NCBI RefSeq assembly: GCF_000832065.1
Contig: NZ_JXQM01000020.1
Span: 1 to 57,523, forward strand
Source of the DNA: Nitrosospira sp. NpAV
GTDB taxonomy: Bacteria; Pseudomonadota; Gammaproteobacteria; Burkholderiales; Nitrosomonadaceae
DNA: 57,523 nucleotides
Direction of reading: 5' to 3'
Below are positions 10,074-37,490 of the stretch, piece after piece (position 1 is the first letter of the stretch; the number at the start of each line of letters is the position of its first letter). A program made the translations under genes and the position numbers. The notes beneath the pieces are model-generated. The model was given only the letters and a program-made list of their open reading frames with translations, was not told the origin of the DNA and did not search any database.

Positions 10074-10166
10074 GGAGAGGTACCGAAGTGGCCATAACGG
10101 CGCTGACTCGAAATCAGATGGTCAGGGTAACCTGGCACGTGGGTTCGAATCCCACCCTCTCCGCCA
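10074..10166 (+). tRNA. tRNA-Ser, anticodon CGA (integration target)
   Basis: The acceptor strands GGAGAGG (10074-10080) and CCTCTCC (10156-10162) pair fully. G at 10163 is the discriminator and CCA is encoded at 10164-10166. The anticodon loop CTCGAAA gives CGA, which reads UCG serine codons. The T-loop GTTCGAATC and a long variable arm fit a class II tRNA-Ser. The gene is intact, and its 3' end doubles as the left attachment site of the island. Confidence 0.95.
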
Positions 10167-11667
10167 ATTGTAACCGCTTGCTTGTAAACCCACCTAACAC
10201 CTTGAAGGGTAATGGGGTATCGGTGGTTCTAAGTCCTGTATTCCGATGATATTGAAATCCACCCGGAACCACGAGTTTGAGCACGGCATGTCGATCCGAT
10301 AGTCGCCCGGAACTCCAGAGTTTATGCGGCTTAGCGATAAAGTCGAGGCTGGTTCTAAGTGCCGCATCGAATGAACGCCTCGGGCGCAACGATTGGCCGG
10401 ATTTTTCGACCAGAACGGCTCTGTCAGTCTCGAATTTCTTGATCCGGGATTCGTAAGCCTTCACCATTGAATCGCTATCCGTCTCAACCAGCCTGTCCAT
10501 CAATTGCTCGATCTTGGTATTCAGCTTATGTATTTCATCCTCAAGCGCCTTTCCGCGCTGCGCGATCTGCGCCTGCCGGTAATTCCACCATGTCTCGAAC
10601 ATCCTGCTCGCAGTTTTGAATAGCGGCACGGAAGGTTCGAGCGTGTGCAACAGAGCTTCGAACTCGCCCTCGATCTTCTCGCGTCTGATGGCTTTACCAT
10701 AGCTCTCACAACGTTTGCTAGTAAAGCAGTAGTAGTACGGATAGTGCTTACTGCGCCCCTTGGTCCAGCAAGCAGTGAGCGGGTTATCGCAATCAGCGCA
10801 ACGTACCGCCCCCCTTAGCGGAAAATCCTCGTTCAAATTTTTTCGCGCAGGTATCTTGGGTTTTTCCTGCATGCGATGTTGGATTTTTTGAAACGTCGCC
10901 AGCGAGACCAAAGGCTCGTTCTGTGCGGGGCGTAAAGACACATCCATGATGTCCGACTGGATATGCGCGGCATAAATTACCCGGCTTAAGATACGGTTGA
11001 CGTGTTCGTTGGTGACTTCGCCCTTGGCGTTCTTGGGGAATTCAGGAAATTGTTCAAAGTAGCGTTTCACCTCTGCCCTGAGCTGGAAGCGCCCGCTGGC
11101 GTACCCTTCCAACCCCTCGGCAACAATGCTCGCCAACGGCTCGTTTCGTACCAGCACCTTCCCATGGCCCGGTTTCGAGGCGTACTTATAACCGATGGGT
11201 GCGAAATGCACCCAATACCCATTCAGCATACGCGCCCTACGCCGGTTGCGTGTTTGTTCCGCGTTCTTCTGACGATGATGTTGCGATACACTGGCAAGCA
11301 GGTGCTCGATCAATAACGAGTCCGAGTCTTCCCCGAAGGACAGGCTCGGAGAGGCTAGCTTTGCACCCGCCTCGGCAATTTTTTTTCGCAAATTAAGGTG
11401 TGCAGAAATCCCTCTTGCCAGTCTGCTCAAATCGTCGATGATAATTGTCAAATTGTCCTTACGATGCGCACGCGCAAACTTGAGCATCGCCTGCATGCCG
11501 GGGCGGTCAATCAGGGACCCGGATTCAGAATCCTCAAACTGCCCAATCACATCCATATGACGATGACGTGCAAACTCGCGGCAGCGAGTGGCTTGTGAGG
11601 CCAATCCCGCGCCTTCCGTTGTTTGCCGCTTAGTCGATACTCTACAATAAATCAATGCCTTATCCAT
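10114..11667 (-). CDS. int: Large serine recombinase (element integrase)
   Basis: A 517-aa large serine recombinase as integrated. It has a catalytic resolvase domain at about 1-145 with Ser11 in YCRVSTKRQ, a recombinase domain, then a zinc ribbon (residues around RCADC ... CFTSKRC) and a coiled coil. The ATG at 11667 has AAAGGAG about 9 nt upstream and overlaps the previous gene's stop (ATGGATAA). The last 14 codons (504-517, ending CQVTLTI) are read antisense from the tRNA-Ser gene, with the stop in the anticodon-stem region. Excision should replace those 14 residues by a 32-residue tail encoded at 36912-37007. Large serine integrases normally act with a recombination directionality factor; none is recognised with certainty here. 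Confidence 0.9.
   Translation of the reverse strand: MDKALIYCRVSTKRQTTEGAGLASQATRCREFARHRHMDVIGQFEDSESGSLIDRPGMQAMLKFARAHRKDNLTIIIDDLSRLARGISAHLNLRKKIAEAGAKLASPSLSFGEDSDSLLIEHLLASVSQHHRQKNAEQTRNRRRARMLNGYWVHFAPIGYKYASKPGHGKVLVRNEPLASIVAEGLEGYASGRFQLRAEVKRYFEQFPEFPKNAKGEVTNEHVNRILSRVIYAAHIQSDIMDVSLRPAQNEPLVSLATFQKIQHRMQEKPKIPARKNLNEDFPLRGAVRCADCDNPLTACWTKGRSKHYPYYYCFTSKRCESYGKAIRREKIEGEFEALLHTLEPSVPLFKTASRMFETWWNYRQAQIAQRGKALEDEIHKLNTKIEQLMDRLVETDSDSMVKAYESRIKKFETDRAVLVEKSGQSLRPRRSFDAALRTSLDFIAKPHKLWSSGRLSDRHAVLKLVVPGGFQYHRNTGLRTTDTPLPFKVLGGFTSKRLQLAERVGFEPTCQVTLTI
10152..10169 (+). other. Left attachment site (attL) in the tRNA-Ser 3' end
   Basis: Bases 10158-10169 (TCTCCGCCAATT) recur exactly at 37007-37018. 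Bases 10152-10166 (CCACCCTCTCCGCCA) recur exactly at 40931-40945. The tRNA stays complete, so this end carries the target gene and sequence to its right is element DNA. The integrase reading frame crosses the site. Confidence 0.8.
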
Positions 11668-11983
11668 TGGGCTTGCTCCTTTCACTGTTGCCTGCTTCAG
11701 CGCTTTGATTGAACGGTTGCGCTGCCTTTCCTGTTTGATCGTTTTTATCTTCATTCAACGCAGCATATAAAAATGTCGGCATGATCATCTGCACCGCATC
11801 CATGTCCAGATTGAGATCGCACATGGTGCGCATGATATCCCACAGGATCGAAAGTAATTCGTTTTCCTGCTCGGTAGTCAGCTCGAACTCGGTCAAGTCC
11901 TCACGGTATGCATCGCAATCGAGTGTGGGGACAGGGATGACCTCCTGTTTGTTTTTACCCGGTGTAGCTGTTTCTTCGTTCAT
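11660..11983 (-). CDS. Small acidic protein coupled to the integrase
   Basis: A 107-aa acidic protein with no domain I recognise. I start at the ATG at 11983, 8 nt from a GGAGG site, rather than at the GTG five codons upstream. The first third is Glu/Asp-rich. The middle (EQENELLSILWDIMRTMCDL) looks helical and amphipathic. Its stop overlaps the integrase start by 8 bp, so the two are translationally coupled. By position it is a candidate directionality factor or accessory partner of the serine integrase, but that is context only. Confidence 0.75.
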   Translation of the reverse strand: MNEETATPGKNKQEVIPVPTLDCDAYREDLTEFELTTEQENELLSILWDIMRTMCDLNLDMDAVQMIMPTFLYAALNEDKNDQTGKAAQPFNQSAEAGNSERSKPNG

Positions 11984-13323: not shown

Positions 13324-15078
13324 CTATAGGCGCAGTTTGATTTTTTTTCGGAAGGGCTTGCCATGGAACGGGTTGATTGCGACTTGCGAGCGCCACGGCT
13401 CGATCTCGGCATAACTCACCGGCTCGAACAGAATGGGGCGATGCTGGCGGACGAACAGGATGCCTGCCTTCATGCGCCGGATTTCATCGGGCGTGGCGAG
13501 CGGGCGAGCCGCTTCGCTCAGATTTTCGTTCAGCCCGAACTGGTCGATGGAGCGGCTGGTGCCCATGGCCGTCACGGTTTGATCCCCCAGCATCTGTCTG
13601 GAAATCAGTTCCAGCGTTTTGGGCGAGCGCTGGCCGGGCAGGAACTGCTTTACTTCAGTCTCGCTTAGGACCGTGTCGAGCGCCGACTTGCCGTAGACGC
13701 GTTCGAACGCAGCCAAGTCCTGAAAGATGAGGTGAAGCCTAAGTCCGTACGATCTGCCCCATGTCAGCAGATTCTCCAGCCCGTTGACCTTGTAATTCGT
13801 GGCCTCGTCCAGAATGAAATACACGGGCCGCTCTTTATTGGGATGGCGCTTTACCGCCGTCGTGCAGCACCACTGCATCAAACCGATATAGGCTTTGTAC
13901 GCCTCCATGCGGCTGGCATCGGCCACGATGAATAACGTAGTCGGTGTTTTGCCTTCCTTGAGATCGTTCATGCTAAAGGTCGAGCGGCCCATGGCCGGGG
14001 CCAGCCGCCCGAATGCGAATGGAGCTAACGATTGCTGAGCGCCGGTGATGAAGCTGCCGAAGGTACGGCTCTCGTTCCCCGACATCAAGGTAATCAGGTT
14101 ATGTGCTATGGCCCTGACCAGCGCCGCGAACTGAGCCACATCCCGTGAATCGTGCACTTTGGCCCATTCGGTCTGCTCGATGGGAAACGGACCGTCTGGA
14201 TGCGGTTTGCCTTCGATATCGACCCCGGCAATCCACCGTGCGGTGTCTTCGAGACGCTGGCGGTTTTCCAGCAGTAAGGAGACCGATGAAAGCGTGGCAT
14301 CGAATAAGTCCACCATACTTTCAGCCAAGCTTGCAAACCCGGTTATCTGGCGACCGCCTTCCCGGAAGTAAGTATTTTCTGACTCTTTCTCTCCCGGTTC
14401 CGGTTGTATTTGCGTAGCCATCCCAAGCAAATCGGCCATGACATCTCTCAAACCTTCCGGACGGGTCAGGTCGTCAGCAATAATGTCGAGCGGGTTGTAC
14501 GAATCAGTTTGATCGATGATGTCCGCCCATAAATTGCCGGGGTTGAGCACACGCACAATTTCACCACGTTTTTTTAGTGGTGCTTCAAGCATACAAGTAA
14601 GCTCAGCCTTAAAATCTGCTATCACCTTGCTGTGCCGGATCGCCATAGCCATTGGAACGACCGTATAGATGCCCTTGCCGGACCCGGCGGGGGCCACAGT
14701 TAGGGCGTTGGAGGCGTAGTCGAAAAATAAGGCGGGCCGGGAATCGCCCGCATACCGTCCCCAGAACGGCCCGCGCTTGTCTTTGCTCAATTCACGCTTG
14801 AATTCCTTGAGCGCCGCCCATGCAGCCGTGCCATGTTTCCCCGTCGGTTCACGGCTGGCGAAGAAGTCGATGAAATGTGCGGCATTGTCGAGTGCACGAA
14901 TCACGGCTTGCAGGCAGAACAGACCCGCCAGCAAATGGATGAGCGCCGAGAACCAGTCGATACGCCCACCCATCATTGGCGGATTGAGGTTATAGGCCCA
15001 CCACGCCAGCCCCGCCGCGATACCGGCGAGTGACAGCAGGGTGGCGGGGGATTTATGGCTGCGAGAATGTGGAGTCAT
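13324..15078 (-). CDS. traG: TraG/VirD4-type conjugative coupling protein
   Basis: A 584-aa type IV coupling protein ATPase. Two N-terminal membrane segments lie at about 12-31 and 42-63. Walker A is APAGSGKG at residues 129-136, and the Walker B region reads VYFILDEATN. The family's late glutamine-rich VRQHRPILFEP segment is also present. Coupling proteins dock relaxosomes to a type IV secretion channel. It lies in the minus-strand backbone, 30 bp after the VWA gene. Carrying its own coupling protein but no channel genes is a known layout for some mobilizable elements. Confidence 0.9.
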   Translation of the reverse strand: MTPHSRSHKSPATLLSLAGIAAGLAWWAYNLNPPMMGGRIDWFSALIHLLAGLFCLQAVIRALDNAAHFIDFFASREPTGKHGTAAWAALKEFKRELSKDKRGPFWGRYAGDSRPALFFDYASNALTVAPAGSGKGIYTVVPMAMAIRHSKVIADFKAELTCMLEAPLKKRGEIVRVLNPGNLWADIIDQTDSYNPLDIIADDLTRPEGLRDVMADLLGMATQIQPEPGEKESENTYFREGGRQITGFASLAESMVDLFDATLSSVSLLLENRQRLEDTARWIAGVDIEGKPHPDGPFPIEQTEWAKVHDSRDVAQFAALVRAIAHNLITLMSGNESRTFGSFITGAQQSLAPFAFGRLAPAMGRSTFSMNDLKEGKTPTTLFIVADASRMEAYKAYIGLMQWCCTTAVKRHPNKERPVYFILDEATNYKVNGLENLLTWGRSYGLRLHLIFQDLAAFERVYGKSALDTVLSETEVKQFLPGQRSPKTLELISRQMLGDQTVTAMGTSRSIDQFGLNENLSEAARPLATPDEIRRMKAGILFVRQHRPILFEPVSYAEIEPWRSQVAINPFHGKPFRKKIKLRL

Positions 15079-25700: not shown

Positions 25701-27570
25701 AGTTTATGAATATGGCGGAACAGATACGCTCCTGTTTGGAGAAGGCGTCCTGCCGGGAGCTATCACGGCGAGTCGTATTGCAGGTAACAACTTCGCGGAC
25801 CTTCAATTCTCTGACGGCTCAGGAAACACGATTACATTCCTAAATCATTTTGGCTCGTCAGCAACAGCGAGCGCATTGGAGAATGTTCGATTTGCAAATG
25901 GAACAATCTGGACCATCGCAAATATGGAGATCCAAACACTTGGAACCAACTCTGGCGAGAATATCTTCGCCTATGCCTGGGGTGATGCCAGCCAGAATGA
26001 CACTATCTTTGCTTATGGAGGCGCGGATCAGGTTCAAGGCGATGCGGGCAACGATTACATAGATGGCGGCGATGGCAACGATAATCTGGATGGCGGATCG
26101 GATAATGACACTCTCAGTTATTCAACGGCAGGCGCAGCCGTAACTGTAAACCTCGCAACAACCGCCGCTCAAAATACTGGCGGAAGCGGAACCGATACGA
26201 TCAGCAACTTTGAGAACCTGATCGGTTCTTCTTATAACGACACTCTTACGGGTGACGGTAACGCCAATATCATTGAAGGCGGCGCAGGCAACGATACGAT
26301 GAATGGCGCCGGCGGCACGGATACGCTCAGCTATGAACGTGCGGGCGCAGGTATCACGATCAATCTTGCTACGGCTACTGCCCAGAACACAGGCGGCGCT
26401 GGAACAGACACAATCTCCAGCTTTGAAAATCTTCGCGGGTCCGCTTTTAACGATACCTTGACCGGAACTTCGGGTAATAACGTTATCGAAGGCGGCGCAG
26501 GCAACGACACGATGAATGCACAAGGCGGCACGGATACGCTGACCTATGCAAATGCTGCTGCCGGAATCACGGTCAGCCTCGCCCTTGCCACAGCTCAAAG
26601 CACAGGCGGCGCAGGGAGCGACACCATCAGCAACTTCGAGAACCTTACAGGCTCGAATTTCAATGATGTCCTCACGGGCAGCACTGCCGCGAACATAATT
26701 GACGGCGGCGATGGAAATGACATCATTCAAGGTGGCGCTGGCAATGACACACTAACCGGGGGCAACGGCATTGATACTGTCTCATACGCCAGCGCTGCTT
26801 CGGCGGTGACGTTTAACTTGGCAACGACTACCAGCCAGAACACTGTCGGCGCAGGCAGTGACACCGTCTCCGGTTTTGAGAACATCCGCGGCTCAGCTTT
26901 CAATGACACGCTTACAGGCAATAACAGCGACAACATCATTGAGGGTGGCGCAGGTAACGATACGATAAATGGCTCGGGTGGCACAGACACGTTGAGCTAT
27001 GTAAATGCAAGTTCAGCCGTAACCGTTAATCTTTCCACGGCAACGGCTCAAAACACCGTTGGTGCGGGTACAGACACGATTAGCAATTTCGAAAGTCTTA
27101 CCGGCTCGAACTATGGCGACACACTAACGGGTAGTACGGCAGCTAATATCATTCGCGGCGGTGCAGGCGCTGATACGATTAGTGGCGGTAACGGCAACGA
27201 TATTCTTTATGGGGATGCCGGGGCGGATACGTTAACGGGCGGCAGCAATGCCGATACCTTTATCTTCGAAGCTTTAACGGCTTTGGGTGCATCGGACACG
27301 ATTACGGATTTCAGCACGGCCCAGGTGGATAAGCTGGATGTTTCTGACATCTTGTCTGGCTATGACTCCTTGACCGATTTGATCTCTGATTTTGTGCGTA
27401 TCACCGATAATGGAACGCACAGTTTCGTGTCAGTTGATGCCGATGGTGGTGCAAACAGCTTCACTCAAATTGCCCAGCTATCCGGCGTTATCAATATCGC
27501 TTCGGGAGCGACAGCGACAGAACTTGAACTGCAAGCAATGATCTCCAACGGAATGCTGATCGCAGCTTGA
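22705..27570 (+). CDS. Large RTX-type calcium-binding secreted protein
   Basis: A 1621-aa protein. The N-terminal 200 residues are of unknown fold. Residues about 210-360 resemble FrpC-like proteins, with Ca-binding DLDASGTIDLLS and DLDSSGSINTGAELFG, and an EF-hand-like WQDANSDGISQSGE. After a middle region without recognised enzyme motifs, RTX nonapeptides (GGxGxDxLx type, such as GGAGNDVVYGGYGDDTLDGG) begin near residue 650. Five 71-80-aa repeats follow. The C-terminus (DTFIFEALTALGASDTITDF onward) fits a type I secretion target. No HlyB/HlyD/TolC homologues are nearby, so export must use a transporter elsewhere. The ATG at 22705 is preferred over the GTG at 22702. Confidence 0.88.
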   Translation: MTYVLTTNQRAVIQTLVDNEDWSTAYFTLGEILDVPVGNNDIDVGVQWWIQIAGDINSDSGGWASVLVRENTKRAGNGTITDQDFQDASDKIANDFFDMLLNPPPGTTAGTIPTIEQIIENDVVGAVNELGLEDEDWAGTLLASALFGYPAVENFIDSPADVVEQALRGLLTLEDGLGLLDRVEPLLNPILGLLGRTPSGGSGIGGGVEPLVFDLDASGTIDLLSTDDGVHFDFGVDSFAEKVGWAASTDGMLAIDLDSSGSINTGAELFGSEVPLSYITNANWDQFINEENGFAKLARYDLVANGGNGDGAITSADAVWSDLIMWQDANSDGISQSGEMLTLTSLGITSIDVSNYELESFNGLSSGTPFSRIIEGNTVTHTGSFTMNGNAYEVADVWFNSQLINTVYTEDYELDVRVLFLPTAHGYGMLPDLHVAMSINENLLDDMAGFVTGNDFGDLFGTTAQVDAENIMLGWAGIDPDNLAVDHSKLGFYGHMKEYQFLRSFTGQNADAYGVWFDLKPWVPYEYDGLTAVNEAYKNVLDAFTARLLFQSGGEALFDSGVSYNPYTDEFEGVFALSENAITDLETAASLSGNLAEYWRGVANFIEHTMGISELSGTEIGWLDDAIDGSSSGALEWTDITALLADPIAVTGTSGNDTISGTIHDDILGTTSSTGPYYSGTDGNDTLSGGAGNDVVYGGYGDDTLDGGEGNDILDGGYGNDTYIYNYGNDVIITAGSSTPSIETDIILMDAGILESDVTIHYEYMNQFQVNLFLEIEGRGTITIAVIDTNGYGPYASYVDEIHFASSAVWTMGQAPVYFHGTDALDGINSTGFEGNNIITGYNGDDIIQAGSGDDTLDGSGGNDDLRGEAGNDIYIVSAGGDVIRETGNDAGDIIMLPDGFDLGDVTFYKVEAGGTYGMYDDMKVDVEGLGSFTILNSFGWSGTTGNVEILKEFAGTQINLLSQVFTTIGTSGNDYFQGTSNYWGQPNDVYLFGTGQDEVYEYGGTDTLLFGEGVLPGAITASRIAGNNFADLQFSDGSGNTITFLNHFGSSATASALENVRFANGTIWTIANMEIQTLGTNSGENIFAYAWGDASQNDTIFAYGGADQVQGDAGNDYIDGGDGNDNLDGGSDNDTLSYSTAGAAVTVNLATTAAQNTGGSGTDTISNFENLIGSSYNDTLTGDGNANIIEGGAGNDTMNGAGGTDTLSYERAGAGITINLATATAQNTGGAGTDTISSFENLRGSAFNDTLTGTSGNNVIEGGAGNDTMNAQGGTDTLTYANAAAGITVSLALATAQSTGGAGSDTISNFENLTGSNFNDVLTGSTAANIIDGGDGNDIIQGGAGNDTLTGGNGIDTVSYASAASAVTFNLATTTSQNTVGAGSDTVSGFENIRGSAFNDTLTGNNSDNIIEGGAGNDTINGSGGTDTLSYVNASSAVTVNLSTATAQNTVGAGTDTISNFESLTGSNYGDTLTGSTAANIIRGGAGADTISGGNGNDILYGDAGADTLTGGSNADTFIFEALTALGASDTITDFSTAQVDKLDVSDILSGYDSLTDLISDFVRITDNGTHSFVSVDADGGANSFTQIAQLSGVINIASGATATELELQAMISNGMLIAA
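26113..27204 (+). repeat. Five tandem 213-240-bp coding repeats in the RTX gene
   Basis: Units begin at about 26113, 26326, 26539, 26779 and 26992. Four are 213 bp (71 aa). The third is 240 bp because one extra RTX nonapeptide is present. Each encodes a beta segment (AAVTVNLATTAAQNTGGSGT-like), a SNFENLxGSxxNDTLTG segment and RTX nonapeptides. The nucleotide similarity could promote unequal recombination. Confidence 0.85.
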
Positions 27571-28260: not shown

Positions 28261-28284
28261 ATGGATGATGGTAAAGAAAAATGA
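28261..28284 (+). CDS. Seven-codon upstream reading frame overlapping the TIR-APAZ start
   Basis: ATG at 28261 opens a seven-codon frame (MDDGKEK) ending in TGA at 28282-28284. The TIR-APAZ ATG at 28281 lies within the overlap AATGA. The TIR-APAZ start has no good ribosome site of its own, so this short frame may feed ribosomes into it. It may also be chance. Confidence 0.35.
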   Translation: MDDGKEK

Positions 28285-29663
28285 CGCAGGATGCTGGAAC
28301 AGCAATACGGAATGTTATCTTCATCAGCAAGGCGACGCCGGGGGATGATGAGTTTATTCTATGGCTTGCTCCACGTCTTGAGGCTGCTGGCTATACCGTA
28401 TTCGCCGATGTTCTCAGTCTGGAACCGGGAGACCGTTGGCGAAAGCAGGTCACCAGCACGCTTCAGAACGAGGCCATCAAGATGCTTCTTTGCTGCCGCG
28501 ACTCCTCTCTTGAAAAGGACGGTGTTCAAGAAGAAATCGGGATTGCCACCGACCTCGTCAGGGAGCTAGCCGACCCTCGCTTCATCATTCCACTACGTTT
28601 GGAAAAGTATAAGAAGATATTCGGAATTGGTGAGCTCCAATGGGTCAATTTCGTTGGTAGCTGGGCTAATGGCTTGCACGAACTTCTTGAAACGCTAGAA
28701 ACACAAGGCGTCCCGCGCTCGACAATTCCCGTAATTAACCCAAATTGGGAGAGCTACAGGAATCGCCTAGCTATTAAGATCGAGGATGCGCCGGAAGTGC
28801 TCACGTCGAATTGGCTTCGGATCGCCAGCATTCCTAACGTTATTCGTTATTTCCAACCGACTGGTTCTATCGATCACGGGCTGATGGAAAATGCCTGTAG
28901 ACACGCGCCGTTTCCTTCCGCCGTACATCTACGGGGATTCTTTTCATTTATGTCGCTAGACGAGGTTCAGCAAGATTTTGCGGGCGTCGGAAGGTTTAAG
29001 ATTCACTCCGAACACAGCCTTTTTGAGTTCATTGCTGACGGTAGTAAAACTCCGGCAATGCATCCCCGGGAAGCCCAGAACATGATCGCATCCATGTTTC
29101 GGCAAAGCTGGGAAAGCTTTTGCCGAAGTCGAGGGCTATATCAGTACGCGTTCTCCCAGCAACTCGGGTTTCATGTTGCTGAAAATCAGATACCACTGAA
29201 AAAGCGGATTTCTTGGGGGAAGCAAGGCCAGCGCCGCAACTCCATGCTTCGCAACAGTGCGGCAGGCAAGGTCTGGCAGTATGGTGTCTCGGCCAATTTT
29301 TCCTTTTGGCCATTTCCACATGTCAAGGTCAAATCAAGGGTTTTGTTCGCCGAACTTGTGGGCAAAACCACCGGCAAGGTTTTCGATGACCCGGATCAGC
29401 AGCACCGGCTGCGGCGTAGTATCTGCAAGGGCTGGCGTAACAAGGTATGGCACGGGCGACTGATGGCCTTTCTTGAATTGCTTTCGGGAGAATCTCAGTA
29501 TATTGAGCTTTTACTATCCGGCTCTGCGTCCATCAAGATCGATGCAACTCCTCTACTCGTAACTTCACCTGTGAGCACAATCTTGACGGATGTCATGGCA
29601 GATGACGCGGAGGAACAGGATTTGACGACACTTGGAAACTTCCACTCGGAGGAGGATGAATAA
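28281..29663 (+). CDS. TIR-APAZ protein of a SPARTA (short Argonaute) system
   Basis: A 460-aa two-domain protein. The TIR domain (about 8-140) begins [20 protein letters not shown] and contains the catalytic-Glu region GVQEE (residues 81-85). The Glu at 85 aligns with the catalytic residue I recall from characterised SPARTA TIR domains. The APAZ region follows to the C-terminus. In SPARTA systems TIR-APAZ pairs with a short Argonaute, and guide-directed recognition of invading DNA switches on TIR degradation of NAD(P)+, causing cell death or dormancy. The length matches the family. Its stop and the Argonaute start overlap by one base (TAATG), so the subunits are co-translated. Confidence 0.88.
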
Positions 29664-31216
29664 TGGATCTTCCTAAAAAGTCAATGGAAGTTGTTTATAT
29701 ACCGGAACCGAATCTATCTTTCGGGCATGGGCAAATTACAGATCATCCCAAGGATGGATTGTTTCTTTATGGGCCGCATTCTGGTCCTAAGCGATCACGC
29801 GAAGTAAAGATCGGTGTAATCGGTACAACGACTGGCTTAAACTATTTCCGGAGCTGGGCAATAAAACTTGGTGGCTTCATCTCCATTCCACCAAGGGGGA
29901 AGATGGACAAGGAACACCGGCTTCATCTATCAAACTTCCCCGGACTAGAGGAAGCATTTGGTTTGCTGATTAACCCCGCAGAATTCGTTCATCGGAAAAT
30001 TGACCTGGCGGCTCTCGATAGCGCCACTAAGACGCTGAACCAGCATGAGGCAGTGAAGAAGGCTGTTGATCTCTACATTAAAGAGATTGAGCACCACGAC
30101 AAGAATGAAGAACGTACCGTTGATATTTGGATATTCGTTTTGCCGGAATTAGTGTTCGAGCGCTGCAAGCCACTTTCTCGGCGCTCCGGTTTGGAATTGA
30201 AAATGGGTGAATTCCTGAAGACTCAGAAGAAAAAATCGAACCTGCCACTCTTTGCAGACATCATCAATCAGGATGATGAAGCCATTTTTGATGACGTGCC
30301 CGATTTTCATCGACAGGTAAAGGCCCGCCTCCTTAAGCTCGGTCATACCTCTCAACTTCTTCGCGAAACGACACTCGCGCCGGATCAGTTTCTGAACAAG
30401 GCGGGATATCCTCTACGGACTTTGCAGGAGCCAGCCAGCGTCGCATGGAATCTCGCGACTGGGCTTTACTATAAGACGCAACCGGAGCCCCCGTGGAAGC
30501 TGGCAAACGTTCGGCCCGGAGTCTGCTACATCGGTCTTGTATTCAAGTTGATTCCGAATGATCGACGAGAACATGCGTGTTGCGCTGCTCAGATGTTTTT
30601 AAATGAGGGCGACGCAGTTGTGTTTCGCGGCGCGAATGGTCCGTGGAAGACGGGAGACTATGATTTCCACCTTAAGGCACCGGAGGCCAAGCAGCTGATT
30701 TCCCGGGTCCTTGAGACATTCAAAGACAAGCACGGCACCCCGCCGAAGGAATTCTTCATTCACGGCAAAACTACATTCAATGAGGAAGAGTGGGATGCCT
30801 TTGCCGAAGCGGCACCGCCAGAAACAAATGTGGTCGCCGTGCGGATCAAGACAACAACCGGAGACACAAAATTATTTCGGAATGGGGATTATCCCGTCCT
30901 GCGCGGTACGGCCATTATTCTGGACGACAAGAATGCCTATTTGTGGACCACGGGTTTCGTACCACGTCTGGATACCTATATTGGACCTGAGACGCCCAAC
31001 CCACTTTTTGTTACAGTCCTACGCTGCTCCGGCGAACCTCCCAATATCCGAACAGTTCTTACAGATATCATGGGTCTAACAAAAATTAACTACAACGCCT
31101 GCAACTATAGCGACGGACTTCCTGTAACTGTACGATTTGCTGGCAAGGTTGGAAATGTTTTGACGATGGGCTCTGCAAAGGATGCTGAGAAACAGCCCTT
31201 GAAATTTTATGTCTGA
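29663..31216 (+). CDS. Short prokaryotic Argonaute (MID-PIWI) of a SPARTA system
   Basis: A 517-aa short pAgo with MID and PIWI domains only. Characteristic stretches are [20 protein letters not shown] near the N-terminus and [16 protein letters not shown] followed by VCYIGLVFK. At the last site the catalytic PIWI strand would normally carry an Asp, but here it reads IGLVF. That fits the catalytically inactive short Argonautes, which use the guide for sensing, not cutting. GGAGG lies about 8 nt before the ATG. It forms a heterodimer with the TIR-APAZ product in characterised systems. Confidence 0.88.
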
Positions 31217-31276
31217 CCGCAGTGAAGGAGCGATGAATAACTTTCATCAGATGCACATTCCTCTGAAGTTATTCGT

Positions 31277-31334
31277 GCTCAACGGGTATAGGTTAACCAA
31301 GCTGAACTGTCCCGCCGGTCGGCAGGCGTTAGGC
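31277..31334 (+). other. attC-like boundary before the HEPN-like gene (tentative)
   Basis: GCTCAAC (31277-31283) fits the RYYYAAC consensus and GTTAGGC (31328-31334) fits GTTRRRY, 58 nt end to end. The inner arms do not pair well, so this is at most a degenerate integron site. No integron integrase is seen. Confidence 0.25.
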
Positions 31335-31350
31335 ACTTAAAGAAATAGTA

Positions 31351-32109
31351 ATGGCTACACAGAAGTTCACTCTTGTCGAAAATGCCCTAGATAGCCTTGA
31401 GCATGCGATTTTGCATCTCAATGACATGCCAAAAGCATTGACTGCCGGGACTTTCAAGCGAATTATTCTCGATTTATCTCATGTCGCTGAACTTCTCTTC
31501 AAGGAGCGCTTACGGCAGGTCCACCCAGCATTCGTCCTCGCTGATGTTGACAAGTATCCGTCCATGACTGCACACACCGTAACGGCAGCCGATGCACTTA
31601 AGCGGCTTCAAAGGATCGGGTCGGTTGAGTTCAATGATTCTGATCAAAGCGCATTAAAGACCATAAGGGAGAAACGCAACGAGATTGAGCACTATGCGTT
31701 CTCCATAGATGAGGCAGAGGCAAAGGTTGTCATAGGAAGCGTGTTGGCGTTCATTTTTCGCTTCGCCACAGATGAAGTTGGGCTCGATTGGGCTGACCGG
31801 AGAATTAATGACCCTGCGTGGAAACGACTTAACCAATTCGCGGAGTTCTACGAGATAGAAAAGGCCCGCGTGCTTGCCGCGCTTGAAGACGGCGAAATCC
31901 CCATCATGGAATGCCCTCTGTGTAGCAATGAGACATTCGATATGGAAGCGGAGGTATGCGTGCTCTGTGGTCACAGAGAGCCGGTTCTTGAATGCAAGGC
32001 ATGCAAAGCCGACTACCTCTACTCCAAAGTTGAGTACGAAGATGCAGGGCTATGTCCAAAGTGCGAATGGAAGGATGGATATGCAACAGCTCACTGCGAA
32101 AAATATTAG
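31351..32109 (+). CDS. HEPN-like protein with C-terminal zinc ribbons
   Basis: A 252-aa protein. The N-terminal helical region (1-150) carries the HEPN ribonuclease motif RNxxxH as RNEIEH at residues 109-114. The C-terminal part has four CxxC pairs: C188/C191, C203/C206, C215/C218 and C235/C238. These would form two zinc ribbons able to bind nucleic acid. HEPN proteins are often RNases in toxin and abortive-infection systems. It lies directly downstream of SPARTA but with a 134-bp gap, so it is probably a separate unit. RNase activity is an inference from one motif. Confidence 0.65.
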   Translation: MATQKFTLVENALDSLEHAILHLNDMPKALTAGTFKRIILDLSHVAELLFKERLRQVHPAFVLADVDKYPSMTAHTVTAADALKRLQRIGSVEFNDSDQSALKTIREKRNEIEHYAFSIDEAEAKVVIGSVLAFIFRFATDEVGLDWADRRINDPAWKRLNQFAEFYEIEKARVLAALEDGEIPIMECPLCSNETFDMEAEVCVLCGHREPVLECKACKADYLYSKVEYEDAGLCPKCEWKDGYATAHCEKY

Positions 32110-32115
32110 CGATAC

Positions 32116-32197
32116 GCCTAACGGGTAGGTAAAACCGACTCCCACGGCATGCAGTCGATGGCGCCTTCTGCGCTTCGCGCTCCGGCACCGTTACCTC
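32116..32197 (+). other. attC-like boundary after the HEPN-like gene (tentative)
   Basis: GCCTAAC (32116-32122) fits RYYYAAC. The far end, GTTACCT (32191-32197), departs from GTTRRRY at two positions. AGGTAA near the left pairs with TTACCT at the right, and a GCGC-TTC-GCGC hairpin lies inside. It is suggestive only. Confidence 0.25.
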
Positions 32198-32223
32198 GGG
32201 ATATTAATTATTGGAGTAGTTCG

Positions 32224-33387
32224 GTGAACAAGAATCCAAAGGTATTCATCTCATATTCCCATGACGGAGACGAGCATAAGGAATGGGTGTTGCGACTGGC
32301 TATAGATCTAATGGGAAAAGGCATTGACACCGTATTAGATCAGTGGGAACTCAATTTAGGCGCAAACCTTCCAAAGTTCATGGAACACGGGTTGCAAGAA
32401 TCCGATAGGGTTCTTGCGGTATGCACGGACAACTACAACGAGAAATCTAATGGAGGAATAGGTGGGACTGGCTACGAAAATAACATTCTTACCGCAGAGT
32501 TATTGTTGAATCAGAAAACAACCAAGTTCATTCCGGTGGTTAGAGCAGTTACGAAAGCCATGAAAACGCCACTGTGTTTAGCTGGACGAATGTATATAGA
32601 TTTTTCTGATAATGCAGCATATGAGCAATCGCTGAATCAGTTGATACACGAGGTTTATGGAGTAAAGCTTCGGGCAAAACCGCCGCTAGGAAAAAATCCG
32701 TTTATCGAGACTGAAGATGATCGACCTACTCTAGGGGAGAATAGCACTACGTTCTTTTTTAACCGTTTTTGCTCGGCATTTCCCGGTGTCCGCGGCATTG
32801 CGTGGTTTGGAGGCAAGGAAGCTGTAGACAGGTTGATGATTCTTTTAAAAATCCCGCTCAATTTCAAGGACGGTGCACCTATCTGGTGGTGGAGAAGCGG
32901 CGATTGCCAAATTGAACGATTTGATCGACTACATGAAAATATTGTTTTAATGGACTACCAAGAACTAAGAATAAGGAGAATTGCCGCAGTAAATTCTGGC
33001 TCCTATTACCAATCGTTTATATACGTTGAAGTTGAGGCAGACAAACCGACAGGGCTATATAAAATCGATATTAGCGCTGATGTGAAAGACCGGGGATACT
33101 CACGAGAAGAATACGGATTATTTGAGGGCAGGACAATATCGCGTGCAGAGTATGATGACGATGCAACTGTTATTGATGGTAAACCCGTTGACTTGCATGG
33201 CAAGGCCGACCTTAGAGTTAGATATTTGACACCATACAACTTTATTATAGCTGCTCATAATTCTCCTATTAACAATGGCGGATATGATAATCGGCGTGAT
33301 GAAGTGTTGAACAACGTACTTATGGGAAAATTGCCGTTGGAGCAGCTTGTTGATGAAATACATAAGCTGCCAAAGCGCGGATATTAA
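32224..33387 (+). CDS. SEFIR/TIR-like signalling protein with an unknown C-terminal domain
   Basis: A 387-aa protein starting at a GTG with TTGGAG about 8 nt upstream. The frame continues 25 codons further upstream, but that part looks non-coding. The N-terminal domain (about 5-150) fits SEFIR/TIR: KVFISYSHDGDEHKEWV as box 1, DTVLDQWELNLG, then RVLAVCTDNYNEKS. The remaining 230 residues include FNRFCSAFPGVRGIAWFGG and no family I can name. TIR/SEFIR domains in bacteria act as NAD+-degrading effectors or assembly modules in defence. It follows the HEPN-like gene in the same direction at a distance of about 115 bp. Confidence 0.7.
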   Translation: MNKNPKVFISYSHDGDEHKEWVLRLAIDLMGKGIDTVLDQWELNLGANLPKFMEHGLQESDRVLAVCTDNYNEKSNGGIGGTGYENNILTAELLLNQKTTKFIPVVRAVTKAMKTPLCLAGRMYIDFSDNAAYEQSLNQLIHEVYGVKLRAKPPLGKNPFIETEDDRPTLGENSTTFFFNRFCSAFPGVRGIAWFGGKEAVDRLMILLKIPLNFKDGAPIWWWRSGDCQIERFDRLHENIVLMDYQELRIRRIAAVNSGSYYQSFIYVEVEADKPTGLYKIDISADVKDRGYSREEYGLFEGRTISRAEYDDDATVIDGKPVDLHGKADLRVRYLTPYNFIIAAHNSPINNGGYDNRRDEVLNNVLMGKLPLEQLVDEIHKLPKRGY

Positions 33388-33668: not shown

Positions 33669-33793
33669 TTTAACACAGAACCTGCCTCCACTAAGTCATC
33701 CCCCAATCTTCCGCACGCCGTTACGGCGTTTGTGCAGACCGGGTGGTTCCCCCTGACTTGGCTCCACCAGAACCTGTGTTTTCGCTCGTTTTA

Positions 33794-33854
33794 CTCGCTT
33801 TTCTCTGGGGTTTTCAACCCCAGCGGGGGTTGTTCTTTAACCCTTTAAAGCGAG
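33794..33854 (+). promoter_or_regulatory. Structured 5' leader of ardA with two exclusive hairpins
   Basis: CTCGCTTT (33794-33801) pairs perfectly with AAAGCGAG (33847-33854), enclosing two alternative 6-bp hairpins. One is GGGGTT/AACCCC (33807-33812 with 33816-33821). The other is AACCCC/GGGGTT (33816-33821 with 33826-33831). They share 33816-33821, so only one can form. This layout could switch translation or transcription of ardA. Confidence 0.5.
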
Positions 33855-33862
33855 AAAAAACC

Positions 33863-34378
33863 ATGAGCGATGAAATCAGAATCTATGTTGCAGACTTGGC
33901 CGCATACAATAATGGGAAGCTGCACGGTGTTTGGATCAATGCCTGTGACGATATCAATGATATCTGGAGACAGATTAAAGCAATGATAAACGCAAGTCCG
34001 GAAGGCTTTGCGGAAGAATACGCCATTCACGATTATGAAGGCTTCGGTGCTTATGCCTTAAGCGAGTATGAGGGTATTGAAACCACCCATGAGATCGCTT
34101 GCTTCATTGCCGAGCACCCAGACTTTGGGGGTGAAATGCTGAGCTATTTTGGCGGTGACCTGGGGGATGCAAAAACAGCCGCAGAAGACAATTATTGCGG
34201 CTGTTACAAATCACTGGCCGATTATGCGCAGGAATTAACCGAGGAAACGACGCAGATTCCAGAAAACCTGACTTACTACATCGACTATGAACGCATGGGC
34301 CGGGATATGGAGATGAACGGCGATGTGTTCACTGTAGCAACAGGTTTTGAAGAGATTCACATTTTCTGGAATCACTGA
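33863..34378 (+). CDS. ardA: Antirestriction protein ArdA
   Basis: A 171-aa acidic DNA-mimic protein of the ArdA family, which blocks type I restriction enzymes as mobile DNA enters a new host. Typical stretches are IRIYVADLAAYNNGKLHGVW near the start, EEYAIHDYEGFG and AYALSEYEGIE. The net charge is strongly negative. I use the ATG at 33863; the longer frame would read through the structured leader. The gene is followed by a strong terminator. Its role fits a mobilizable element. Confidence 0.92.
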   Translation: MSDEIRIYVADLAAYNNGKLHGVWINACDDINDIWRQIKAMINASPEGFAEEYAIHDYEGFGAYALSEYEGIETTHEIACFIAEHPDFGGEMLSYFGGDLGDAKTAAEDNYCGCYKSLADYAQELTEETTQIPENLTYYIDYERMGRDMEMNGDVFTVATGFEEIHIFWNH

Positions 34379-34513: not shown

Positions 34514-34807
34514 CTATAAATGCTGTTCGATATCCATGCGGCCATGCAGGATGCGGACAATCTCAATCCGTTCTTGTCCGGTGAGGCGGTAAAAAATCAC
34601 ATGCTTGCCGACACCGTATTTGAAATAACCTTCCCGGATATCATCGCACGCCCGCCCCAGACCGGGCTTGTCCGCCAGATCATGAAAGGCGCTGTCAAGC
34701 TGGGTTAGATAGTGTCTTTGCTGGGCCTTGCCCCATTGCTTACGCGTGTAACGGCCAATGCCAAGCAAGTCGTCCTTGGCTTTCTGGGTGAGGATAAACG
34801 TCCCCAT
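34514..34807 (-). CDS. parE: ParE-family toxin
   Basis: A 97-aa RelE/ParE superfamily toxin. Visible features are the LTQKAKDDLLGIGRYT helix, the GRACDDIREGYFKYGVGKH strand region and the C-terminal FYRLTGQERIEIVRILHGRM. ParE toxins poison DNA gyrase. Its ATG directly follows the parD stop, so the pair is coupled. It lies downstream of the relaxase on the same strand and should stabilise the element. Confidence 0.9.
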   Translation of the reverse strand: MGTFILTQKAKDDLLGIGRYTRKQWGKAQQRHYLTQLDSAFHDLADKPGLGRACDDIREGYFKYGVGKHVIFYRLTGQERIEIVRILHGRMDIEQHL

Positions 34808-35050
34808 CTAGTCTTCACTTTCCAGTTCATCCAGTATGTTTTGCAGGGAATAATCAGCAATGCCACTTCGCTCGCCCTCGGTCAAGGCGCGGCACAGCGC
34901 TTCCAGCTTGGTCTCACGTTCTTCCAGCAGGCGAAGACCGGCGCGTATCGCTTCGCTGGCTGAGCCGTAACGTCCAGATTCGATTTGATACGCGAGAAAC
35001 TTCTCGAAATGCTCGCCCAGCGTGACGCTGGTATTTTTCTGTACCGGCAT
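34808..35050 (-). CDS. parD: ParD-family antitoxin
   Basis: An 80-aa ParD/CC2985-type antitoxin. The N-terminal ribbon-helix-helix (KNTSVTLGEHFEKFLAYQI, then GRYGSASEAIRAGLRLLEE) is clear, with an acidic C-terminal toxin-binding tail. I start at the ATG at 35050, which has a GAGGAAA ribosome site; the frame runs 11 codons further upstream. It probably represses its own promoter. Confidence 0.9.
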   Translation of the reverse strand: MPVQKNTSVTLGEHFEKFLAYQIESGRYGSASEAIRAGLRLLEERETKLEALCRALTEGERSGIADYSLQNILDELESED

Positions 35051-35173
35051 GGTTTCCTCTATGAATCCAATCTTTATACCCAATTATAATATTTATTGGT
35101 ATTGACGGCAATATAATTATGAACGGTTCACCGCGCTGTACCAAACAAGTATGCGATATTGAAACCGTACTTT

Positions 35174-36472
35174 CTAGCGTGTCCAGTCGAGGCCGCGCTG
35201 GCGAGGCTGGGGGCGGTCCCGGTTTTGTTGCTGACGTTGTGCCTCAAGCTGTTCAAGACGCCGATCCCGCATGGCTTGGTATTGGGACCTGTCCTGTTCC
35301 AGTTCATCCAGCCGGTAGGATTTCAGCGATTCCAGCCGCTCGATCCGTGCTTGCAGGGTACGGCGGGTTTCTAGCTGCTCAAAGATCAACGCGTCGCGTT
35401 CCTGTTGCTGTCGCATTTGAATCTGCCATGCTTCTAGTTCATTCCATTCTTCGATTTGCTTGCGCCTTCCCGTGAGGCGGTCAAACAGGCCGCGCATGCC
35501 TTTATTGAAATTGTTCCGCCATTCCTGTTGTTTGCCCTGCCAGTAGGATTGCTGGGCCTCATTTAATCTTTGCCGTTCAGCCTGATTTTGGCGTACCAAT
35601 GCTCGCCGTTTTTCTTCCAGCTCAGCCCGGCGAGCTGTAAACACCGTCATTTGTTCTTGGGAAAGCGTCTCCAGCCGTGTCGTCATCTCTTCGGCGATCT
35701 GGATTCTCGCTTCTGCGACCGATGGCAGGTTTTTTTCATCGGTAAGACGGGTGCGCACTTCCTTTGTTTTGATCCCCACCCATTTAGACACGGCAAACAC
35801 TTCGCCTCGATGATCCACCGCAACAAAGCCGCGCCGGTCGCCACGGGCGAGGAGATACCCTTGCTCTTTCAGTGCATGGGCAAAAGCGTTCTGTGTTTTA
35901 CCGAGAGACCAGCATTGCTGAAATACCGCTTTAATCTGCTTCGGGTCTTTGCCTATCCGCTTGGCCTGCTGCCATTCCGCCAGCGTAAAGTTAAGCGGAT
36001 TACGATCATGAGAATGCCTAAGTCCTTCCGGCATGGTCCAGCCGTGTTCCAGAAACAACTCACGGGACAAATCGATTAATCTTCGTTTGGAGAAAGAAAG
36101 CTGTACCGCTTTCATTTCATCCAGCTTGATGCGTGACCACACCGCATGGCAATGCCTGCGCCCGTTTTTCTCATGAAAAACGATGGCGCGAGGCTGATCG
36201 TTCAGCCCGAGTTTTTCCTCGGCCCGCTCGATGGCTTGTTTGAATGTTTCGGTAGAAACATTCTCATGCTTTGGGGGATTAAGACTTAAGGAGAACAGAA
36301 ACTGCTTGCAGCGCGTTGCGCGGCTAATTGCATAGGCTTCGTTGAGCGCGCCCATGAGGTTTTGCGAGGCAAATCCGCGCACCTCATGAACTTCGACATG
36401 CTCATTCTCTTGTTTGAGCAAGTGCAGGGCCAAATCCTTGGCCCCGCCGCGCTGATTGCCAACAAGGATCAT
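35174..36472 (-). CDS. mobA: Relaxase of the MobA/VirD2 type
   Basis: A 432-aa relaxase with its nuclease domain at about 1-190. The metal-binding motif is RRHCHAVWSRI, near residues 104-115. The upstream motif carries SLNPPKHE. A relaxase of this type nicks oriT through a Tyr residue; I cannot place that residue with certainty in this N-terminus. The C-terminal half is a long Arg/Gln/Glu coiled coil. It overlaps mobC by ATGA. With mobC it forms the relaxosome that the TraG protein would deliver to a helper channel. Confidence 0.9.
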   Translation of the reverse strand: MILVGNQRGGAKDLALHLLKQENEHVEVHEVRGFASQNLMGALNEAYAISRATRCKQFLFSLSLNPPKHENVSTETFKQAIERAEEKLGLNDQPRAIVFHEKNGRRHCHAVWSRIKLDEMKAVQLSFSKRRLIDLSRELFLEHGWTMPEGLRHSHDRNPLNFTLAEWQQAKRIGKDPKQIKAVFQQCWSLGKTQNAFAHALKEQGYLLARGDRRGFVAVDHRGEVFAVSKWVGIKTKEVRTRLTDEKNLPSVAEARIQIAEEMTTRLETLSQEQMTVFTARRAELEEKRRALVRQNQAERQRLNEAQQSYWQGKQQEWRNNFNKGMRGLFDRLTGRRKQIEEWNELEAWQIQMRQQQERDALIFEQLETRRTLQARIERLESLKSYRLDELEQDRSQYQAMRDRRLEQLEAQRQQQNRDRPQPRQRGLDWTR

Positions 36473-36912
36473 TCATCTTCCACGGGCGCTACACCCAGCG
36501 CAGTAATTAGCAAAACCCGTATAGCTTGGATTTCCGCGCATGCCTGTACAATCGCACTTTCCGTTTCCGGTGTTACATCCAGCGTTCCTATATTGGCCGC
36601 TTTGGCGAGCTGGTTGATATTGGAAGCCAGACGCGACCGACCGAATTCACCCAACACCAGAGCCAGCAAGGCAGTGTCAGGCGCAGGTTTTTTGATCTTA
36701 CGGCGCTTCTCAGTCTGTTCGCCGAGCAAGCGGCCACGTATATACGACCCCAGCGGTTGATTGCCCGCGAGTTCATCCAGCCGCTTACGTTCCTCGACAG
36801 TGAGCCGCAGGGAAAACGGCGGCGTAGAACGCCATTTAGATTTCTTTGGGGAAGGTGCCGCAGCAGTCGAGAATGCCCGAGCTGCTGAGGAAATATTGCT
36901 GAAGCCGCTCAT
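36469..36912 (-). CDS. mobC: Relaxosome accessory protein MobC
   Basis: A 147-aa MobC-family protein. The signature is FGRSRLASNINQLAKAANIG near residues 89-108, after a ribbon-helix-helix-like PFSLRLTVEERKRLDELAG. MobC assists relaxase binding at oriT. It overlaps the relaxase gene by ATGA. Its own ATG also overlaps the TGA of an orphan reading frame that becomes the integrase C-terminus if the element circularises (see 36909-37016). Confidence 0.9.
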   Translation of the reverse strand: MSGFSNISSAARAFSTAAAPSPKKSKWRSTPPFSLRLTVEERKRLDELAGNQPLGSYIRGRLLGEQTEKRRKIKKPAPDTALLALVLGEFGRSRLASNINQLAKAANIGTLDVTPETESAIVQACAEIQAIRVLLITALGVAPVEDE

Positions 36913-37016
36913 GGTGACGGCTCCTGATAATACGAGACATTACTCTTGAGATAGTCGTTCCATTCCTCTAGAATTTCCAGAACGCGGTTCGAAGTTTCGC
37001 ACTCCGTCTCCGCCAA
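36909..37016 (-). other. Orphan coding tail: predicted C-terminus of the integrase in the excised element
   Basis: Reading leftward from the TTG at 37014-37016 gives LAET and 31 further residues, ending YYQEPSP and a TGA at 36909-36911 that overlaps the mobC start as ATGA. An in-frame TAA lies directly upstream, and there is no ATG and no ribosome site. So this is a headless reading frame as it stands. The integrase has the same LAE at residues 501-503 across the 12-bp att repeat, in the same frame. Joining the ends gives a 535-aa integrase with a tail encoded at 36912-37007. Confidence 0.75.
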
Positions 37017-37018
37017 TT
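37007..37018 (+). other. Right attachment site (attR) of the mobilizable element
   Basis: TCTCCGCCAATT matches 10158-10169 exactly. The sequence to its left (CGCGGTTCGAAG at 36983-36994) is also like a tRNA-Ser T-arm, but that part lies in the coding tail. The downstream ATTAAAC is where the tRNA would have joined flanking DNA before insertion. Confidence 0.65.
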
Positions 37019-37110
37019 AAACTTTATAAGTTATTGATTAATAAATCATTATTTAAAACTGAAACTCATATACCCACATTCTTACCCACGTGAAGCGCAA
37101 AGACCGTTAG

Positions 37111-37316
37111 TCATTCTGCACTAAATTCTTTAGGCCGAGATTGCTGTAGTAATCGGATAACTGCATATCGATCTTCCATTGGATTGCTCTCGAGTACTTT
37201 CGCCGCAGTAGCGATACTCATCATTGCCGAGCAGGACATGTTTTGCGAATCTGCATCCTTTAATCCAGTTGATCGGCCATTTCAACAAAGTTAGCTACGT
37301 ATCCTTCAGTTGACAT
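37111..37316 (-). pseudogene. Small gene broken by a frameshift
   Basis: ATG at 37316, after an AGGA site, opens MSTEGYVANFVEMADQLD and then stops at TAA. A shift by one base at GGATTAAAGG leads into a frame that continues KDADSQNMSCSAMMSIATAA and ends KEFSAE with a TGA at 37111. The total of 206 bp is one base short of 69 codons, so a single-base loss explains it. No family is recognised. It reads toward mobC. Confidence 0.45.
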
Positions 37317-37490
37317 CCATTTCCTACCCGTTGTTACTAGCTGATCTTCTTAGTCAACGCGTGGAGGTAGTCAATCGCAAGGCGTATTTTCGGCCGTGTT
37401 CATCCTTGATAACCTATTTTATCAGGGGTAAAATGCTCCCGTGAGGGGCGACCGGCGCCGAACTCAACGCGGAAAGATGGGTGGGCAGTC

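Follow-up and report, generated by a model that had tools for sequence, protein, structure and literature searches.

Integration of a mobilizable element into a tRNA-Ser gene is predicted to exchange the C-terminus of its large serine integrase

It was found that the gene of a large serine integrase in Nitrosospira sp. NpAV runs into a tRNA-Ser gene and ends there in antisense codons, and that a headless open frame at the far end of the same element continues it in the same codon phase. This arrangement suggests that integration cuts the integrase gene: its body comes to end in antisense tRNA codons, and its native tail stays behind in front of mobC. On excision, body and tail would be rejoined into an integrase of 535 aa with a conserved tail (predicted joint ...CAATTGGCGGAGACGGAG...). 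The stretch of DNA analysed, here called the window, is the 57,523 nucleotides of contig NZ_JXQM01000020.1, from a genome of 3.45 Mb whose nearest integrase and relaxase relatives are found in Nitrosospira. Judging by the sequence, positions 10158-37018 are very probably an integrative mobilizable element that was inserted into the 3′ end of tRNA-Ser(CGA) by a large serine integrase and has its attP inside its own integrase gene. The 26.85-kb element is bounded by two copies of TCTCCGCCAATT as direct-repeat ends, at an offset of 26849, and carries both an integrase and a relaxase gene. A Pfam scan of 24 ORFs of the element gave no VirB-type families, while a coupling protein is present; transfer would need a helper conjugation system, with the coupling protein supplied by the element. 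The features are as follows.

10074..10166, plus strand: tRNA-Ser(CGA), the target gene, still intact in the integrated state (ARAGORN; Rfam RF00005)
10158..10169: shared 12-bp core at attL, TCTCCGCCAATT, which is the 3′ end of the tRNA including CCA
10114..11667, minus strand: large serine integrase as integrated, with 503 aa through LAE and 14 residues encoded by the tRNA (PF00239, PF13408)
11660..11983, minus strand: 107-aa gene that shares 8 bp with the start of the integrase gene
13324..15078, minus strand: TraG/VirD4-like coupling protein (PF02534/PF12696/PF10412)
35174..36472, minus strand: MobA/VirD2-type relaxase (PF03432)
36469..36912, minus strand: mobC, overlapping the relaxase start and the tail stop, both as ATGA (PF05713 at 20.1 bits, below the curated cut-off of 23.2)
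36909..37016, minus strand: headless frame, in which 32 residues follow LAE; the putative integrase tail of the circle only
37007..37018: second copy of the core TCTCCGCCAATT, at attR

The preliminary description had the integrase frame crossing attL and stopping in antisense at 10114-10116 within tRNA-Ser, which is correct to the base; the frame is on the minus strand, the stop codon is TAA, and the tRNA is tRNA-Ser(CGA) (10074-10166). The frame enters the tRNA from the element side, and its last antisense codons are RVGFEPTCQVTLTI. Counted from ATG 11667, the integrated form has 517 aa (503+14), and the joined ends do give, as had been proposed, one open frame of 535 aa (503+32). An extra in-frame ATG lies at 11754, with which the longest integrase ORF has 546 aa; the relatives align from the 11667 start, where the query itself began. 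The integrase has a serine-recombinase catalytic domain (PF00239, E 2e-24, with matches to catalytic domains in the PDB) and a zinc ribbon (PF13408, E 6.7e-8), and its predicted model shows long helices at residues 347-395 and 399-426, consistent with a coiled-coil region. In the model of the integrase body (mean pLDDT 77, pTM 0.37) the last 21 residues are unreliable. Its best PDB matches are a serine integrase/RDF complex and the Bxb1 and phiC31 integrases, with TM-scores below 0.5 over the flexible whole; at such scores, Bxb1 and the serine integrase of 9dxf/9dxd match the model along most of the integrase length. Pfam gave no match to the recombinase domain PF07508 in the integrase at E<=0.001, and profile positions 220-332 match the A118 integrase 6dnw at 2.6e-7; a PF07508-type domain of the integrase may be diverged. 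The 107-aa gene (11660-11983) does overlap the integrase by 8 bp, as the preliminary description said. It precedes the integrase in 20 of the 43 loci searched (13 distinct), and its product is a candidate accessory or directionality factor that might help excision.

At the other end, the translation of the headless frame is LAETECETSNRVLEILEEWNDYLKSNVSYYQEPSP followed by the stop codon. This TGA (36911-36909) overlaps the ATG of mobC (36912) as ATGA, LAE is read in the same codon phase on either side, and the two frames are linked into one by the 12-bp repeat, so the preliminary description holds on all these points. Immediately upstream of the shared core, the headless frame runs into a stop codon in host DNA. 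Since the frame of the chromosomal copy ends in tRNA-antisense codons, the native C-terminus is invisible from the integrated integrase gene. An open frame of 36 codons is unremarkable by itself, and it is conservation that raises the tail above chance. The part of the tail with the sequence VLEILEEWNDYLK resembles a helix by eye.

The same T-loop motif was found beside both copies of the core.

10142..10149, minus strand: the tRNA's T-loop motif TTCGAACC, at a distance of 17 nt from TGG (the complement of CCA), proposed zinc-ribbon motif of attB
36986..36993, minus strand: the tail's T-loop-like motif TTCGAACC, at a distance of 22 nt from TGG, proposed zinc-ribbon motif of attP (+5 relative to attB)

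The tail DNA would thus be one half of attP, in which the T-loop motif recurs at a distance from the core that is 5 bp greater than in the tRNA. The antisense T-loop motif lies 17 nt from TGG in 35 of the 38 distinct integrase ends, and all 35 are in codon phase 1; the three exceptions are L142 (a joined copy, described below), L084 (at the end of a contig), and L017 (where the end is deleted). ARAGORN called a tRNA at 26 of the 38 integrase ends, for seven amino acids: Ser (GGA, GCT, CGA), Arg (ACG, CCG), Met (CAT), Val (GAC), Phe (GAA), Thr (CGT, GGT), and Leu (CAG, CAA). At the other 12 ends the tRNA is cut, lies at a contig end, or goes unrecognised, and at two of them (L012 and L079) it is probably absent and the T-loop match may be chance. 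The fixed distance of 17 nt is tRNA anatomy; what is informative is the constant codon phase, together with the tails. Among 50 distinct tails, which were picked with a profile including the motif-coded columns and hence not wholly blind to the result, 41 have the motif 22 nt from TGG (TGG+22), 40 of them in phase 1; the next best offset occurs in 9/50, and the median of the others is 2. Nine tails lack the TGG+22 motif, one is out of phase, and one (L132) has a stop codon. The core after TGG tracks the tRNA hit, being TGGCGG for Ser, TGGCGC for Arg, and TGGTAG for Val. In serine integrases, the zinc-ribbon motif of attP is described as lying 5 bp further out than that of attB (Rutherford et al., PMC3783163). 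On the sequence, the distances of 17 and 22 nt are this published shift, and thus the T-loop would be the attB motif and the tail would carry the attP copy. The outward shift of 5 bp was found for the tRNA-side half-site only, and a search by eye for a mirrored zinc-ribbon motif on the other half of attP gave none. New relative to the preliminary description are the targeting of tRNA genes by a whole family, the mimicry of the T-loop within attP, and the displacement by 5 bp. The T-loop as a shared recognition word would be a simple rule for insertion that has many targets yet is site-specific.

Is the predicted exchange of C-termini peculiar to this element? Nearly all of the relatives' integrases that were found end in tRNA-type sequence, and at the opposite end of their elements similar tails occur. 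Twelve elements have both ends on one contig, and of these ten are in phase. TGG is in phase 1 at both ends in the window, Nl5, NMNS01, G074, G085:C39, G085:C62, G021:C3, G085:C19, and G054:C46, and the tenth, Henriciella, is in phase with the core GTGGTGG and without the TGG+22 motif. The integrase frame is damaged in two of the ten (one TAG in G074, several stop codons in G054:C46). The one element out of phase is a 5-kb remnant in Nsp8, which has no tRNA at its integrase end and a 2-nt loss that displaces the tail; the one that was not scored is a remnant on contig C250 whose integrase end is too broken for phase scoring. Nine same-genome pairings across contigs also agree at the core, as weaker cases than those on single contigs: Nsp11, JL21 (L011/L040), UBA151, Chromatocurvus, Sphingobium, G404, G068 (L096/L062), G031 (L077/L063), and G060, where JL21, G068, and G031 have several ends and the partners were chosen by core match. 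The Chromatocurvus and G060 pairs also have, elsewhere and out of phase, a match that exceeds the core in length and is due to chance. The remaining cross-contig pairings are other combinations in those genomes, or G069, which has a tRNA-Leu-type integrase core and a tRNA-Ser-type tail core.

A naturally joined copy was found in G074, another genome of the family. At this locus (L142), integrase residues 441-501 are followed in one open frame by AETECESSNRILEVLEEWNDYLKHNVPYYQEPLP and a stop codon, and then by mobC and the relaxase gene, which is the sequence predicted for the junction of an excised circle. L142 is truncated, with transposase frames directly upstream at the integrase cut (IS240-type DDE domain, PF13610, E 8.9e-21). 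Since its right part is 98% and its integrase part 89% identical to the other element of G074, it is not a simple assembly copy; perhaps a circle junction was captured by an insertion sequence. In G085:C62 too, an integrase remnant, there with a frameshift, precedes the tail. The claim that the integrase ends differently in the two states, its gene being rebuilt across the attachment site, is thus strongly supported by the phase in relatives and by this natural joint; the crossover lies inside the integrase frame, with a C-terminus that would differ between the two states. The natural joint also bears on the idea that the headless frame is a separate gene, in which an NTG from the tRNA core (xTGGCG) starts a leader peptide of ~35 aa before mobC in the integrated state. 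An NTG does stand at the core in the 40 phase-1 tails, the TG being supplied by the CCA complement, but several of these codons are CTG, and the upstream host DNA varies by element so that no conserved ribosome site is possible. As the frame continues the integrase in L142, such a leader peptide is very improbable.

A tail profile, used because a regular-expression search was too strict, matches the sense strand beside mobC and the relaxase gene in 29 of 35 distinct relaxase loci (best antisense match 0.028); 11 of the 29 matched tails had seeded the profile and 18 had not. The six relaxase loci without a tail by this profile are L049 and L051-L055. In an alignment of 21 divergent tails, W19 is invariant, and L16 and L23 are nearly so. 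A helix block of 12 codons, lying outside the attP motif and the mobC ribosome site AGGAG, has stop codons in 0/21 tails in frame 0 versus 16/21 and 10/21 in the other frames. Its pN/pS is 0.45 in frame 0 versus 0.79 and 1.26, with a pS of 0.70, these values being pairwise and not corrected for relatedness. Among eight close tails, a synonymous excess is seen only in the predicted frame (15/33; P=0.017), with P=0.43 and 0.87 in the other sense frames. However, a fraction of only 0.31 of their third codon positions is variable, versus 0.78 in mobC (seven genomes), and such unusually fixed third positions indicate that part of the tail conservation is at the DNA level. Because the close tails give only P=0.017 under this strong DNA-level constraint, the wide set of 21 tails was used for the codon test. 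Some of the DNA-level conservation results from TTCGAACC of attP and the AGGAG of mobC lying within the tail. The constraint on the tail thus appears to be on both protein and DNA, the latter for attP, the mobC ribosome site, and perhaps more.

It may be asked whether the tail is nothing but an attP arm and mobC leader conserved as DNA, with the open frame and the in-frame join lacking any function as protein. The third positions unusually conserved among close relatives fit such an explanation, TTCGAACC accounts for the conserved S-N codons, and AGGAG can account for the QEP codons. Past the motif, however, the helix block has diverged synonymously (pS 0.70) and yet keeps its pattern, the predicted frame alone combines the lowest pN/pS with an absence of stop codons (pairwise over 21 tails, uncorrected for relatedness), and the phase is kept in 10 of the 11 scorable single-contig elements. 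A longer tail variant with an insertion also stays open into the same helix. DNA conservation of an attP arm is therefore improbable as the whole explanation, and a tail that is also translated is preferred. The longer variant was found at L043, L045, L046, and L050, with ~25 extra residues in frame between the attP motif and the helix. In the eight close tails, positions 36945-36966 (minus strand GGAATGGAACGACTATCTCAAG) are nearly invariant including the third positions, for which neither attP nor the mobC ribosome site accounts; this stretch might belong to oriT or to a regulatory site. Three short contigs (L138 on G071:C210, L139 on G068:C166, and L140 on G065:C40) have two or three tails each in the same orientation, as if elements had piled up in tandem.

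The join would also place the mobilization genes behind the integrase. The overlap of mobC with the relaxase gene as ATGA at 36469-36472, proposed in the preliminary description, is present, and the ribosome site of mobC (AGGAG) sits inside the tail. In the integrated state, only ~106 bp of element DNA precede mobC, with host sequence upstream of them, and a scan of 36850-37450 found no promoter-like match on the minus strand. In the chromosome, a promoter, the 107-aa gene, and the integrase gene would be read into the antisense strand of tRNA-Ser. In the circle, the 107-aa gene, the integrase gene, mobC, and the relaxase gene would form one series of overlapping genes, and mobC and the relaxase gene would be transcribed from the integrase promoter only there, silent in the chromosome and switched on when excised. 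The overlaps, the negative promoter scan, and the short lead of ~106 bp fit a coupling of the mobilization genes to the integrase promoter only after excision, and the gene order and overlaps fit a circle-dependent transfer expression of the Tn916 type. The C-terminal exchange may be real with mobC and the relaxase gene expressed independently, from a promoter in the tail or host flank or through a regulator of the element, so that excision is no gate. The ribosome site of its own of mobC would suit this, and many promoters escape consensus scans. In a second relaxase clade, moreover, the distance between tail and relaxase gene is greater by 73-131 nt (the tail's stop codon lies 509-567 nt before the relaxase gene versus 436), leaving room for another promoter, and only 23 of the 50 tails have a stop codon overlapping the ATG as ATGA. 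Given the empty promoter scan, the overlapping genes in the clade of the window, and the precedent of Tn916, independent expression is somewhat unlikely, though to be taken seriously.

In a recipient, the circle would produce the tail-bearing integrase, insert at a tRNA gene, and lose the tail again. I infer that the tail-bearing form is the integrating enzyme, made after transfer. The exchange might even be a built-in sensor of state, where the circle alone encodes a tail-bearing, integration-proficient integrase together with mobC and the relaxase, and the tRNA-tailed enzyme of the integrated state is restricted to excision or idling. I hold this only tentatively, as less likely than not. 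If it is true, a family of serine integrases aims at the universal T-loop of tRNAs and writes the state of its life cycle into its own protein, and a separate directionality factor may be unneeded. Should the tail control direction or activity, one recombination event would tie together the integration state, the form of the enzyme, and the transfer genes.

The two forms of the integrase of myxophage Mx8 are named IntP and IntX. In this phage attP lies within the integrase gene, and integration swaps 112 C-terminal residues for 13 with altered activity (PMC6070905, PMC4701971). The likeness lies in the attachment site inside the integrase gene and the new C-terminus upon integration; Mx8 is, however, a phage with a tyrosine integrase, while here a serine integrase gains a tRNA-encoded tail and transfer genes follow the tail of the circle. 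Streptococcal ICEs targeting rumA have a serine integrase with the attachment site in its own gene, whose length and C-terminus differ between the integrated and excised states (PMC4701971). They resemble the present case in having a serine integrase with a state-dependent C-terminus, but they belong to Firmicutes, the target is a protein gene, and both reading frames are changed by the exchange; the available parts of PMC4701971 make no mention of tRNA targeting, a conserved circle tail, or an overlap of integrase and mobilization genes. In Tn916, circularization has to take place before transcription runs through the attachment site into the transfer genes (PMC11658703, citing Celli and Trieu-Cuot 1998). 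There a promoter reads through the joint, whereas here the joint itself codes and completes the integrase, and its transcription is presumed. A state-dependent switch of the int promoter is described for ICEKp1 and likewise for ICEclc and ICEEc1 (PMC13023037); integration state at a tRNA site alters expression of the integrase in ICEKp1 too, but the switch as described there changes the promoter and not the end of the protein. The A118/LI, Bxb1, phiC31, and SPbeta integrases share the catalytic domain, zinc ribbon, and coiled coil, and the attP motif of LI is also 5 bp further out than that of attB (PMC3783163); what differs from these is the tRNA T-loop as motif and an attP overlapping the integrase's own codons. 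According to the Islander paper of 2014 on a tRNA-island database, serine-family integrases were not known to target tRNA genes (PMC4383910). A literature search, mostly outside subscription papers, found no tRNA/T-loop arrangement for serine integrases, which may still be published. Thus, in the sources at hand, a C-terminal exchange through an attachment site in the integrase gene (Mx8, rumA ICEs) and circle-only transcription of transfer genes (Tn916) are already known. What appears to be new, unless later literature contains it, is a family of serine integrases that aim at tRNA genes and have a conserved tail, predicted for the circle only, which is joined to mobilization genes.

Thirteen relatives of the integrase came from named genomes of Nitrosospira, Nitrosomonas, Sphingobium, Chromatocurvus, and Henriciella, and the relaxase is present in 10 of the 12 genomes concerned. 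Among 125 genomes of the family including NpAV itself, 26 have the relaxase (E<=1e-60), 23 the integrase (E<=1e-50), and 30 the tail (E<=0.01), where the tails of G028, G038, and G120 appear only at E>0.002 and may be chance. Only 5 of 369 genomes of the class, again with its own included, have the integrase (E<=1e-80), and thus the integrase family is patchy. Scans of IMG/VR gave no integrase relatives, and tblastn against plasmids and phages gave only distant serine recombinases, one of which, from a plasmid of Tritonibacter (36% identity, with 42% of the query covered), likewise ends in a tRNA, tRNA-Thr(GGT). In a search for the empty site, the tRNA and part of the left flank were matched in all 22 other genomes of the genus, and the sequence past the tRNA diverges. 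When eleven loci were aligned, only L147 and L155 clearly continue across the junction, weakly; in relatives the right flank of the host is so diverged that no clean empty site was seen. The right neighbour of the element is a gene for a many-copy PEP-CTERM protein, so that its synteny is uninformative.

A remnant of a second element (L003, G000:C250:33000-36930) lies in the same genome and keeps both ends at tRNA-Ser(GCT), with an integrase remnant. Its tail is 86% identical over 118 bp and ends at the core; mobC and the relaxase gene are lost. This copy and that of Nsp8 being remnants, one could suspect that the element of the window is likewise a dead relic whose geometry is a historical accident. 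However, its integrase, mobC, and relaxase frames are open, its cores match, and relatives of like geometry occupy several tRNA genes; a relic is an improbable account of the window copy. The interior of the L003 remnant has genes for a low-molecular-weight phosphatase-type protein and an ArsB-type arsenical pump.

Other genes were noted within the element. A small second serine resolvase with an HTH (21179-21838) is possibly the trace of a nested transposon, and 22702-27570 encodes a protein of 1622 aa with twelve stretches of RTX calcium-binding repeats. Between the cargo and the relaxase gene lie a gene for an ArdA antirestriction protein (33743-34378) and a ParDE toxin-antitoxin pair (34514-35083). 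In the cargo region 28281-33387, PADLOC found a TIR-APAZ type protein adjoining a short prokaryotic Argonaute, a pair which I take to be SPARTA-like, and also a DUF3644-like gene and a bSEFIR-like protein as further defence cargo.
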